Shown: positions 35,602 to 38,789 of the stretch, piece by piece
Layout of the letters: every line of letters begins with the position of its first letter
How positions within the stretch are numbered: position 1 is the stretch's first letter
Assembly: GCF_025165815.1 (NCBI RefSeq)
Contig: NZ_JAFFZE010000014.1
Coordinates: 62,001 to 126,000 of the forward strand
Length of the DNA stretch: 64,000 bases
Direction of reading: 5' to 3'
Origin: Actinophytocola gossypii
Lineage (GTDB): Bacteria > Actinomycetota > Actinomycetes > Mycobacteriales > Pseudonocardiaceae
The notes under the pieces: model-generated
Database searches by the model: none
What the model saw: only the letters and a program-made list of their open reading frames with translations
What the model was told of the DNA's origin: nothing
Position numbers and translations under genes: made by a program

Positions 35602-36339
35602 TCAGGCCGTGTAGTCGAACGGCGCCGCGCCCGGCGGCGCGCCGGTGGCCGAGCTGAGCGCGGCCGCGCCGCGCAGGTGGGCGCGGCCCTTGCCGACCGT
35701 GCGGAGCGTGTGGCTGAGCAGGTCGGAGAACTCGGCGAGCTTGCTGTCGACGTACTCGTCGCACTCGGCGCGCTGGCGGGCCGCCTCGTCGGCGGTCGCG
35801 TCGAGGATGCGGGCGGACTCGGCGTGCGCGGCCTGCACGACCTCGGTCTGGGAGACCAGGCGCTGCTGCTCGATCCGGCCGTCCTCGACGGAGCGCTCGT
35901 AGGACTCGCGGCCGGCCTGGATCATCCGGTCGGCCTCGACCTGGGAGCGGTTCACCAGGTCGTCGTACTTGGCCTGGCCGGCGGCGACGGTCTGGTCGGC
36001 GCGGGCCTCGGCGTCGGCGACGAGGCGCTCGGCGTGCGCGGTGGCGTCGGCGACCATGCGCTCGGCCTCGGCACGGGCGTCCTCGACGGTCTTCTCGGCC
36101 TCCATGTTGGCCTTGCTGACGGTCTGCTCGGCCTGGTGCTCGGCGGCGCCGATGATCTCGTCCTTGCGGTCCAGGACGTCCTGGGCGTCGTCGACCTCGG
36201 CGGGCAACGCGTCGCGGACCTCGTCGAGCAGTTCGAGGATATCCCCGCGCGGGACCACGCAACTGGAGGTCATCGGCACGCTCCTGGCTTCCTCCAGGAT
36301 CGTGACGAGCTCGTCCAACGCCTCGAACACCTTGTACAC
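35602..36339 (-). CDS. sepIVA: Septation/polar growth coiled-coil protein SepIVA
   Basis: 245-residue DivIVA-like coiled-coil protein. It starts VYKVFEALDELVTILEEARSV and PMTSSCVVPRGDILELLDEV, matching mycobacterial SepIVA from memory, then carries a long helix with 11-residue periodicity (AEAERMVADATAHAERLVAD) and ends with CDEYVDSKLAEFSDLLSHTL. In Mycobacterium it is needed for septation and placement of cell-wall precursor synthesis. GTG 36339 is chosen because GGAGGAGG lies five bases upstream and gives the same length as the mycobacterial protein; GTG 36369 would add ten residues. It keeps its place next to YceD-rnc-mutM. Confidence 0.9.
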   Translation of the reverse strand: MYKVFEALDELVTILEEARSVPMTSSCVVPRGDILELLDEVRDALPAEVDDAQDVLDRKDEIIGAAEHQAEQTVSKANMEAEKTVEDARAEAERMVADATAHAERLVADAEARADQTVAAGQAKYDDLVNRSQVEADRMIQAGRESYERSVEDGRIEQQRLVSQTEVVQAAHAESARILDATADEAARQRAECDEYVDSKLAEFSDLLSHTLRTVGKGRAHLRGAAALSSATGAPPGAAPFDYTA

Positions 36340-36420
36340 CCGGGCCTCCTCCACCGCCACCTGCGTCACCCAGTCTGCCGCGTCGCCGGGGGTGAGCGGT
36401 GGAGGTGGCCCGCTGGCGTG

Positions 36421-37167
36421 TCAGCCGTCGAGGTTCACGTGGACGAACGTGCCGTACCGGTCGGGGGTGTAGTAGAACTCGCCCGCGTCGCCCGCGACGA
36501 GGCGGCGCTCACCGCGGTCCGGGGCGCCCGGGGTGGGCACGGTGTACAGGCTGTAGTAGCCGGCGGCGCAGTCCGGCAGGACGCCCTCGCGGTTCTCGTA
36601 GGTCTGGCCGTCCTCGGGGTACGGGTAGGGGCCGCCCGCCTGGACGAGCGCGATCGTGTCGGCGACCTCGGCGGGGAGGGTGGACAGGCCGGCCTCGTCG
36701 ATGCCAGTGGGGTCGCCGCACTCGCTCGGCGCGCCACCGAGGTCGATGAGCACGAAGCTGGCGTAGTGGTCGGCGGTGTAGAAGTGCTCGCCCTCGGAGC
36801 CGGTGACGATGCGGCGGGCGCCGCGGTGGTCGCTGCCCGGGGTCTCGACGGTGTACTCGTGGTAGTAGCCCTCGGCGCAGTCCGGGAGGAGGTCCTCGCG
36901 GTTCTGGAAGACGGTGCCGTCCTGCGGGTAGGGGAACGGTCCGCCCTGCGCGATCAGGTCCGCGGTGTCCTCGGCCTCCGGCGGCAGGTCGCCGAGCGGG
37001 ACGAGGTCGTAGCTCGATGTGTCCCCGCAGACCGGCTGGGCAGCCGGGGCGGTCTCGGTCGGGGTTTCGGTCGCCGCGAACGTGGCGGTGGTCAGGCCGA
37101 ACACGCCGAGCGCGGCGACCAGCAGGGTGAGGAGCGTCTTCACAGGCTTGGATGTGACGTTGCTCAT
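36421..37167 (-). CDS. Secreted tandem RNase Sa-like protein, second domain degenerate
   Basis: 248 residues: signal peptide (about 1-31) and two guanyl-specific ribonuclease domains of the RNase Sa/barnase family, about 47-143 and 150-247, repeating with a period of 103. The first domain keeps the catalytic set: Glu104 in YYHEYTV, Arg115 and Arg119 in HRGARRI, His134 in DHYASF. The second keeps the fold (PYPYPEDGQTYENREGVLP) and arginines 218 and 222 but has Leu207 in place of the catalytic Glu and Arg237 in place of the His, so it should not cut RNA. Cysteines 47/97 and 150/200 occupy matching places. No barstar-like inhibitor gene is adjacent. Start ATG 37167 gives the signal peptide. Confidence 0.9.
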   Translation of the reverse strand: MSNVTSKPVKTLLTLLVAALGVFGLTTATFAATETPTETAPAAQPVCGDTSSYDLVPLGDLPPEAEDTADLIAQGGPFPYPQDGTVFQNREDLLPDCAEGYYHEYTVETPGSDHRGARRIVTGSEGEHFYTADHYASFVLIDLGGAPSECGDPTGIDEAGLSTLPAEVADTIALVQAGGPYPYPEDGQTYENREGVLPDCAAGYYSLYTVPTPGAPDRGERRLVAGDAGEFYYTPDRYGTFVHVNLDG

Positions 37168-37222: not shown

Positions 37223-37681
37223 ATGACGCGAATGGACACCCTCACGATCCGCCGGGCGACCCGGGACGACGTCGCGGCGATCGTGGCGATGCTGGCCGAC
37301 GATCCGCTTGGTGCGCGGCGCGAGTCGCCGGGCGACCCGGCCTACGAGCGGGCGTTCACGTTGATCGACGCGGACCCGCACCAGTACCTGGCGGTGGCCG
37401 AGGTGGGCGGCGAGGTGGTCGGCACGCTGCAGCTGACGTTCGTTCCCGGCCTGTCCCGGCGGGGCGCGACGCGGGCGCTGATCGAGGCGGTCCGGGTGCG
37501 GGCGGACCACCGGGGCTCTGGCCTGGGCAGGCGGTTGGCGGAGTGGGCGATCGAGGAGTCCAGGGCACGGGGAGCGGCGCTGGTCCAGCTCACCACCGAC
37601 GCGAGCCGCGTCGACGCGCACCGGTTCTACGAACGCCTCGGCTTCGTCGCGAGCCACGTCGGCATGAAGCTGGCCCTCTAG
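37223..37681 (+). CDS. GNAT-family N-acetyltransferase
   Basis: 152-residue GNAT protein: LTIRRATRDDVAAIVAMLADD start, acetyl-CoA loop in VRVRADHRGSGLGRRLAEWAI and the SRVDAHRFYERLGFVASHVGM motif B. It resembles small acetyltransferases of unknown substrate. Divergent from the RNase Sa-like gene with 55 bp between the starts, and 4 bp of overlap with the convergent coaD stop. ATG 37223 or the in-frame ATG 37232 may be used. Confidence 0.85.
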   Translation: MTRMDTLTIRRATRDDVAAIVAMLADDPLGARRESPGDPAYERAFTLIDADPHQYLAVAEVGGEVVGTLQLTFVPGLSRRGATRALIEAVRVRADHRGSGLGRRLAEWAIEESRARGAALVQLTTDASRVDAHRFYERLGFVASHVGMKLAL

Positions 37682-38163
37682 GAAGGGTCGTCGGCGATGC
37701 GGGTGAGCAGGCGGCGGTGGACCGTCTCCGGGAGCAGGTGGGCCACGTCGCCGCCGTAGGTGGCGACCTCCTTGACCAGGGAGCTGGACAGGAAGCTGTT
37801 CAACGGCTTCGTCGGCATGAAGAGGGTCTCCACGCCGGTGAGCTGCTGGTTCATCTGGGCCATCTGCAGCTCGTAGTCGAAGTCGCTGATCGCGCGCAGG
37901 CCCTTCACGATCGCCTTGATGTCGTGCTGGCGGCAGTACTCGACCAGCAGCCCGTGCCACGAGTCGATCCGCACGTTCGGCAGGTGCGCGGCCGCCTCCG
38001 CGAGCATCTCCATCCGCTCGTCGACGGTGAACAGGCCGCGCTTGTTCTTGTTGATCAGAACCGCGACCACGACCTCGTCGAACACGTCCGCGGCTCGCTC
38101 GAGGATGTCGAGGTGCCCATTGGTCGGCGGGTCGTAGGAACCGGGACACACCGCGCGCCGCAT
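37678..38163 (-). CDS. coaD: Phosphopantetheine adenylyltransferase
   Basis: 161-residue enzyme that joins 4'-phosphopantetheine and ATP to dephospho-CoA. The nucleotidyltransferase motif is in CPGSYDPPTNGHLDIL (T-x-G-H), with KGLRAISDFDYELQMAQMN and the SSSLVKEVATYGGD C-terminal motif for ATP. Length is normal. It forms the usual coaD-rsmD pair, with rsmD 80 bp upstream on the same strand. ATG 38163. Confidence 0.97.
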   Translation of the reverse strand: MRRAVCPGSYDPPTNGHLDILERAADVFDEVVVAVLINKNKRGLFTVDERMEMLAEAAAHLPNVRIDSWHGLLVEYCRQHDIKAIVKGLRAISDFDYELQMAQMNQQLTGVETLFMPTKPLNSFLSSSLVKEVATYGGDVAHLLPETVHRRLLTRIADDPS

Positions 38164-38243
38164 TGGCGGACCGTACCAGCCGGAACCGGCCGTTCTGGGC
38201 GAACGGTGGTGGTGATCACCCGACCGTGACTCAGACCCGTGAC

Positions 38244-38789
38244 TCAGACGGTGGCCCAGTGCAGCGCGGTGTCCCCGTAGGTCCGCACCCGGCCGCGCTC
38301 CCACGCCGGCGGCCACTCGACGCCGGCCGAGCGGCTGGCGCGTTCGACCACGACCAGGGTCCCCGGGCGGGTCCAGGCGGCCAGGGCCACCAGGTCGGCG
38401 GACAGCGACGGCTCCGGCAGCGCGTACGGGGGATCGGCGAGAACCAGGTCGAACGGGTCCGGCGCCGGCTCGGCGAGGACGGTGGCGACCTTGCCCTGGC
38501 GCACCGACGCCCCGGCCAGGCCGAGGGTCGACACGTTCCGGCGCAGCACCGACACCGCCCCGGGGTCCGACTCGACGAGCAGGGCGTGAGCCGCACCACG
38601 GGACAGGGCCTCGAGGCCGAGCGCGCCGGTCCCGGCGTACAGGTCGAGCACCCGCGCGCCATCGAGGTCCATCGCGGCCTCGACCGCGCTGAACAGGGCC
38701 TCGCGTACCCGGTCGGAGGTCGGGCGGGTGCCGCGCCGGGGCACCGCGAGCCGACGTCCGCCCGCCGTTCCGGCCACGATCCTGGTCAC
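38244..38789 (-). CDS. rsmD: 16S rRNA (guanine(966)-N(2))-methyltransferase
   Basis: 181-residue SAM-dependent methyltransferase of 16S rRNA. The N-terminus (RIVAGTAGGRRLAVP, then RPTSDRVREALFSAV) is the RsmD hallmark; SAM site VLDLYAGTGALGLEALSRGA and catalytic DPPYALPEP are present. GTG 38789 is selected because the conserved region begins there. It stands before coaD in the same order as Mycobacterium. Confidence 0.94.
   Translation of the reverse strand: MTRIVAGTAGGRRLAVPRRGTRPTSDRVREALFSAVEAAMDLDGARVLDLYAGTGALGLEALSRGAAHALLVESDPGAVSVLRRNVSTLGLAGASVRQGKVATVLAEPAPDPFDLVLADPPYALPEPSLSADLVALAAWTRPGTLVVVERASRSAGVEWPPAWERGRVRTYGDTALHWATV

Follow-up and report, generated by a model that had tools for sequence, protein, structure and literature searches.

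The window analysed here is a stretch of 64,000 nucleotides from Actinophytocola gossypii (assembly GCF_025165815.1, contig NZ_JAFFZE010000014.1). Positions 36421–37167 of its minus strand form an open reading frame of 248 amino acids plus a stop codon, which would encode a secreted protein made of two RNase Sa-type domains joined by a short linker. The gene, its parts and its neighbours are given below; the products of the neighbouring genes and the guanine-recognition role of the loop, which is taken over from RNase Sa, are our assumptions.

36421..37167, minus strand: whole gene, putative secreted tandem RNase Sa-type protein (open reading frame with two PF00545 matches)
37075..37167, minus strand: predicted Sec-type signal peptide, residues 1–31, ending ...TTATFAA (cleavage site judged by eye)
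36721..37029, minus strand: domain 1, residues 47–149, active-type RNase Sa (Glu104, Arg115, Arg119, His134)
36424..36720, minus strand: domain 2, residues 150–248, predicted pseudo-RNase Sa (PF00545 match, catalytic losses)
36583..36600, minus strand: presumed guanine-recognition loop of domain 2, Tyr-Glu-Asn-Arg-Glu-Gly, residues 190–195 (Asn, Arg and Glu in 36/36 dead copies, see below)
36856..36858, minus strand: Glu104, the catalytic Glu of domain 1
36547..36549, minus strand: Leu207 of domain 2, in place of the catalytic Glu (RNase Sa Glu54)
36457..36459, minus strand: Arg237 of domain 2, in place of the catalytic His (RNase Sa His85)
35602..36369, minus strand: downstream neighbour, presumably a DivIVA-like coiled-coil protein (homologues by tblastn)
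37678..38316, minus strand: upstream neighbour, which we take to be coaD (phosphopantetheine adenylyltransferase); it flanks the RNase slot in related loci

A divergent gene on the plus strand (37223–37681), presumably for a GNAT-type acetyltransferase, lies between coaD and the tandem RNase and was matched in two of 25 compared loci, both from the window's genus (L118 and L124). Promoter and terminator scans of the tandem gene gave no signal, such scans being uninformative in this high-GC DNA.

Two RNase Sa domains in one chain

PF00545 matches the protein twice: the whole protein gives E 3.5e-44 (149.8 bits against a cut-off of 24), the region of domain 1 alone E 1e-24 (87.4 bits) and domain 2 alone E 2.2e-18 (67 bits). 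An earlier note, made from the letters of this stretch, had proposed two RNase Sa/barnase-type domains repeating with a period of 103 residues; the two matches bear this out and the offset is exact (Cys47/Cys150, Glu104/Leu207, Arg115/Arg218, Arg119/Arg222, His134/Arg237). The residues it named as kept in domain 1 (Glu104, Arg115, Arg119, His134) and as replaced in domain 2 (Leu207, Arg237) are all correct. Aligned to each other, the two domains share 52 of 99 residues (53%) without a gap at E 1e-37, which excludes chance resemblance. No second PF00545 gene was found elsewhere in the window's genome.

RNase Sa, a textbook enzyme for catalysis and stability, has a catalytic set of four residues (Glu54, Arg65, Arg69 and His85), of which Glu54 is the general base and His85 the general acid; the loop at 38–41 reads guanine and Tyr86 contacts the nucleotide. 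Domain 1 matches full-length chains of the RNase Sa family in the PDB at E 1.2e-33 to 1.8e-29 and domain 2 matches chains of that family at E 7.1e-25 to 6.7e-22. Equivalents of all four catalytic residues are present in 30/30 copies of domain 1 (the sample is described below), and with its active site thus intact, domain 1 is probably a functional guanyl-specific enzyme of the RNase Sa type. The cysteines, one at the domain start and one behind the loop in all 30 copies of domain 1 and all 36 dead copies, differ from the Cys pair of RNase Sa.

AlphaFold2 models were made from shallow alignments of six rows, which are enough to judge the fold, though neither the pocket nor how the domains are arranged. 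The model of the window's protein has a mean pLDDT of 74.7 and a pTM of 0.50, the relative placing of its domains being unreliable; that of a short form from Amycolatopsis reached 77.5 and 0.54. The predicted helix and strands of domain 2 repeat the order of those in domain 1, 102–103 residues further on. Superposition on RNase Sa had been proposed in the earlier note, and Foldseek does lead from the models to RNase Sa, Sa2 and Sa3 (TM 0.86–0.93 on full-length targets), through domain 1 only: the program reports the best-aligned domain, which by identity is domain 1. The likely fold of domain 2 is thus drawn from the modelled order of secondary structure together with its sequence. The likeness to RNase Sa, Sa2 and Sa3 (PF00545) is one of fold and sequence, with the full catalytic set in domain 1; the matched PDB chains are single-domain, whereas here a second, apparently dead copy follows in tandem.

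Spread, gene slot and a second carrier

A profile (A2) built from ten tandem proteins found the full-length tandem in 30 of 297 sampled genomes of the family, several genera among them, where the earlier note had suggested looking for the duplicated form in relatives. The tandems score at least 331 bits, against 245 for the next row (positions 1–170 of 244, across a stop codon). By genus the tandem is present in 6/6 genomes of the window's own (g1), in 20 of the 25 listed for g16 and in four of the seven listed for g33, the denominators 25 and 7 being genomes listed, since 31 family genomes devoid of a match were not assigned to a genus. Genus g16 includes Amycolatopsis, and one g16 protein is identical to a protein of A. 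coloradensis. The five listed g16 genomes and three listed g33 genomes that have no tandem indicate that the second domain is dispensable there. Wider sampling with the tandem model, which would miss tandems of two quite different RNases, gave 16 full-length matches among 397 genomes of the order, all within the window's family; in the phylum sample of 396 genomes the tandem occurred in the window's genome only (0/395 others). The match lists for the family and the order extend to lower scores than those of the tandems.

The gene occupies a recurrent slot, with coaD (and rsmD beyond it) on one side and the DivIVA-like gene, YceD and, further on, rnc on the other; these names are presumptive, the homologues having been tested by tblastn. 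In eight loci (L106–L110, L120–L122) a single-domain RNase occupies the same slot, which suggests that the slot predates the second domain. None of these neighbours, on the coaD or the DivIVA side, occurs at L119, the only tandem locus of g33 that was examined. In five Amycolatopsis-type loci (L117, L123, L018, L019, L020) the tandem RNase and the DivIVA-like gene lie about 1.5 kb apart, with other sequence in between; in the remaining loci that have both, the DivIVA-like gene follows close behind the RNase.

A second carrier came to light when the profiles of the tandem and of domain 2 were used for searching. In g33, domain 2 alone ends open frames of 368–460 residues, and six such proteins are endonuclease I homologues (PF04231, E 2.6e-43 to 2.4e-41), found in six of the seven listed g33 genomes. 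The fused domain is C-terminal, is joined through a Pro/Glu- or Gly-rich linker and scores 24.5–35.3 bits against PF00545 (cut-off 24). The nuclease fold of this family is its own and unrelated to that of RNase Sa. PF04231 was further searched in ten genomes (G117 and nine outside g33): four, G117 included, have a homologue and six, the window's genome among them, gave none. The dead-module profile found no match in the loci of these four, and the four module-free homologues stop about where the linker would begin. One of the four (L158; G035:C2:1334065-1334694) carries another accessory domain, an N-terminal DUF6359.

No third carrier appeared among the matches listed at dead-copy scores in the 297 family genomes. 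Queries with the dead module gave no match in phage records, no confirmed match in viral contigs and three weak matches in plasmid records (32.6–37.8% identity, one annotated as a ribonuclease). These records (NZ_CP081497.1, NZ_AP024649.1 and NZ_LR134454.1, from Streptomyces, Arthrobacter and Tsukamurella) likely hold ordinary PF00545 domains. The module is thus carried by two types of hydrolase acting on the same class of substrate, RNase Sa-type (30 genes) and endonuclease I (six genes). Judged from these architectures, the reading of the dead domain as a portable, presumably non-catalytic module of secreted nucleases is well supported. Its presence on two unrelated secreted nucleases points to a function of use to nucleases in general, of which substrate capture is the first to consider.

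Residues, descent and selection

The residue comparison is based on an alignment of 30 copies of domain 1, 30 of domain 2, six endonuclease-fused copies and 58 single-domain RNases, the last being the distinct sequences above 86 bits from the examined loci (seven weaker ones, at 26–44 bits, were dropped). The 30 copies of domain 1 and the 58 single-domain RNases make up the active-type reference of 88 domains; the copies of domain 2 and the fused copies are the 36 dead copies.

Glu54, Arg65, Arg69 and His85 are present in 88/88 active-type domains. The dead copies have Leu (35) or Phe (1) at the Glu54 position and Glu in none of 36. The Arg65 equivalent is kept in four and gone in 32, and in 30 of the 36 the Arg65 hairpin and PFPYP loop are deleted, so that the pocket may be remodelled. 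At the His85 position Arg occurs 18 times, His 13, Tyr four and Leu once, His thus being gone in 23/36. Every dead copy lacks, besides Glu54, either Arg65 or His85, and 19 of the 36 lack all three. Because of these losses we class domain 2 as a pseudo-enzyme relative of PF00545, presumably inactive, and not as an active RNase. The earlier note had described a pseudo-enzyme domain fused to an active RNase: the description extends to all 36 copies, each devoid of Glu54 and of Arg65 or His85, and agrees with the purifying selection reported below. A sequencing error as the cause of Leu207 was considered and rejected, since the catalytic Glu is missing from domain 2 elsewhere too and the tandem is present in 6/6 genomes of the genus.

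The residues that would read the substrate have fared differently. Asn39, Arg40 and Glu41 of the guanine loop, Arg69 and Tyr86 are retained in 36/36 dead copies, the placing of Arg69 beside the hairpin deletion being alignment-dependent. Active-type domains have the loop as well (Asn39 and Glu41 in 88/88, Arg40 in 83/88), so its conservation is by itself no proof of binding. Three residues are newly fixed in the dead copies and absent from all 88 active-type domains: Tyr37 (36/36), Leu54 (35/36) and Pro83 (36/36). At 34 positions the active-type domains are near-invariant; in the dead copies 15 of these are kept, 17 are variable and two have been swapped (Phe37 to Tyr, Glu54 to Leu). From these patterns the dead site looks to have been rebuilt once and held thereafter. 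Net charge is not conserved, ranging from -12 to -6 in the window's genus, from -10 to +4 in g16 and from -16 to -11 in g33 together with the fusions, which argues against a general electrostatic grip: a specific pocket would be needed.

In the phylogenetic tree one branch, with support 100/97, has all 36 dead copies on the same side of it; the tree program warned that the alignment has few columns for so many rows. Within the limits of such an alignment, the tree shows the dead copies to be a single lineage of common descent. The copies of domain 1 do not form one clade: their placement takes five label changes, of which well-supported branches force at least four, and single-domain genes lie in between. 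Having arisen once, the dead domain must thus have been repeatedly lost or passed between RNase genes. At L108 (G245:C2:584500-592900) a single-domain RNase is nested in the tree among tandem domain 1s; behind it comes an apparent remnant of the domain 2 end, eroded and out of frame. Secondary loss of domain 2, leaving a broken copy in one species, is likely at this locus.

Summed dN/dS is below one for both domains in each genus (domain 1/domain 2: 0.298/0.359 in g1, 0.353/0.379 in g16 and 0.142/0.259 in g33) and is 0.268 for the endonuclease-fused copies, with bootstrap upper bounds for the dead copies of 0.378–0.555. Domain 2 is under purifying selection, which by point estimate is slightly weaker than on domain 1, although the ranges overlap. 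Its frame is open in all 30 tandem genes found, by a search that favours open copies.

Proposed function and its alternatives

We propose that domain 2 grips guanine, or nucleic acid that contains it, without cutting, and thereby holds the attached nuclease on its substrate; we put the probability of this reading at roughly one half, the ligand being deduced from retained residues. The tandem protein would be exported and domain 1 would cut RNA. The duplicated RNase Sa domain, having apparently lost the general base and further catalytic residues, would still possess the Asn39-Arg40-Glu41 loop, Arg69 on the phosphate side and the nucleotide-contacting Tyr86. With these it could grip exposed guanines and keep the nuclease in place, and the same module would have been set on a secreted nuclease of the endonuclease I type. 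Carbohydrate-binding modules are non-catalytic binding domains that hold secreted glycosidases on their polymer; only the proposed working principle is shared, fold, ligand and origin differ, and no relationship is claimed. Loss of activity, binding of guanine or nucleic acid and a gain in nuclease efficiency are each inferred, and substrate gripping appears to be the most economical explanation of a domain in which the residues for cutting are lost and those for reading kept. A broader version, in which a dead RNase Sa domain serves as a guanine-reading module shuffled between unrelated secreted nucleases and catches guanines of RNA, perhaps also of DNA given the endonuclease I carrier, to hold the catalytic domain there, is put forward tentatively, at somewhat less than even odds.

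A precedent comes from the powdery mildew effector CSEP0064/BEC1054, a RALPH protein of the T1/F1 RNase fold, which according to PMC6464244 has lost the catalytic residues, binds RNA in vitro and is devoid of the guanosine-binding arrangement. By analogy, a dead protein of RNase-like fold may bind RNA, although in CSEP0064 the guanosine site itself is lost. The likeness to RALPH effectors such as CSEP0064 lies in the RNase-like fold and the lost catalytic residues; CSEP0064 is a lone fungal effector, whereas the present domain is bacterial, keeps the guanine loop and is joined to an active-type nuclease. The tandem protein accordingly lies outside the RALPH group, which is fungal, single-domain and without a guanosine site. 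Folding offers another reason for what was kept. According to PMC2716378, the Asp-box motif of the RNase Sa fold includes Y80, Y81, H85 and Y86; the loop, Asp84, Tyr86 and Phe89 may have been retained for folding, the loop perhaps for that alone.

The earlier note had named RNA, a receptor and a barstar-like inhibitor as possible ligands, and had suggested looking for a barstar gene elsewhere on the chromosome. In barnase–barstar pairs the inhibitor gene lies often, not always, beside the RNase gene. No barstar gene adjoins the tandem gene; the window's genome has one PF01337 match only, on another contig. Its locus (L003, G000:C4:13406-16645) aligns with those of three relatives (L010–L012) except for the RNase stretch before barstar, which is missing in the window's genome. 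In the three relatives a single-domain RNase directly precedes barstar; in L003 barstar is continuous, in a single frame, with an anchor-like segment upstream of it. Barring an assembly error, barstar in this genome is an orphan inhibitor. With the partner RNase missing, the tandem enzyme is the sole possible barstar target among the PF00545 proteins of the genome. There is thus room for a contact between barstar and domain 1; domain 2 is not thereby a decoy, its pocket having lost residues.

A decoy role, in which domain 2 soaks up barstar-type inhibitors and leaves domain 1 free, would fit the presence of barstar in the window's genome and, as read from the match rows, in all 30 tandem genomes. 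That presence carries little signal, barstar being general in the family (265 of 297 genomes), and in at least 19 of the 30 tandem genomes, among the matches listed, a different RNase, of the single-domain type, is found no more than about 0.5 kb from barstar; of the other 11, those that the listings cover show no such partner. The Arg65 and His85 equivalents are gone in 32 and 23 of the 36 copies, and, to our knowledge, endonuclease I is no target of barstar, so that a decoy would be useless to that carrier. We consider this role very unlikely. The ligands first named are thus reordered: RNA is favoured by the loop kept in 36/36 copies and by the endonuclease I fusion, and a barstar-like inhibitor is disfavoured by the missing pocket Arg or His and by the place of barstar beside another RNase.

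A target other than nucleic acid deserves more weight, though we think it unlikely: the old pocket might have been reused for protein or glycan, directing the nuclease to a receptor protein, to the surface of a competitor or to the producer's own cell wall. Tyr37, Leu54 and Pro83, newly fixed around that pocket, give the site together with the hairpin deletion a remodelled look, and the portability of the module between two secreted nucleases is as compatible with targeting as with substrate capture. A new protein interface, however, would not need the Asn-Arg-Glu loop, Arg69 and Tyr86, unchanged in all 36 copies, and both known carriers are nucleases, with no third among the matches listed at dead-copy scores. 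More improbable is that domain 2 acts on domain 1 within its own chain, whether by helping it to fold, by stabilising it or by restraining the active RNase internally until export. The short linker and a constraint on domain 2 near that on domain 1 would suit it; the same module, however, sits through a Pro/Glu- or Gly-rich linker on endonuclease I, which has a different fold, and single-domain relatives in the same gene slot manage without it, and the placing of the domains in the model (pTM 0.50) is unreliable. Weak or different catalysis through Arg69, Tyr86 and, in the 13 copies that keep it, His85 has a slimmer chance than even the decoy, given that every copy is without Glu54 and also without Arg65 or His85, the window's own lacking both Glu54 and His85. 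The remaining reading, a functionless leftover in decay, could draw on the eroded domain 2 of G245 and the eight listed g16 and g33 genomes that have no tandem. It is already contradicted by the selection data (open frames in 30 tandem genes, dN/dS of 0.26–0.38 with the upper bounds given above), is opposed by the residues kept and replaced in common and by re-use on a second nuclease, and retains next to no probability.

The families of the parts are already known; what appears to be new is the arrangement and its spread. In the open-licence full texts searched, PMC2716378, PMC7857584 and PMC6464244 among them, we found no account of RNase Sa in tandem or as a pseudo-enzyme, nor of an endonuclease I with such a domain attached.

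For annotation, the consequence is that a PF00545 match in such genomes should be read as an active RNase only after a check of the catalytic Glu. A naturally dead copy of RNase Sa with an intact guanine loop, kept across genera, separates base recognition from cleavage in a testable way, and its adoption by an unrelated endonuclease would illustrate a route by which secreted nucleases acquire modules for substrate binding, a subject that is, as far as we know, less charted than its counterpart in glycosidases. If the broader version, with a guanine-reading module shuffled between nucleases, proves true, the domain would be the founding case of a class of nuclease accessory domains made from the nuclease's own corpse.
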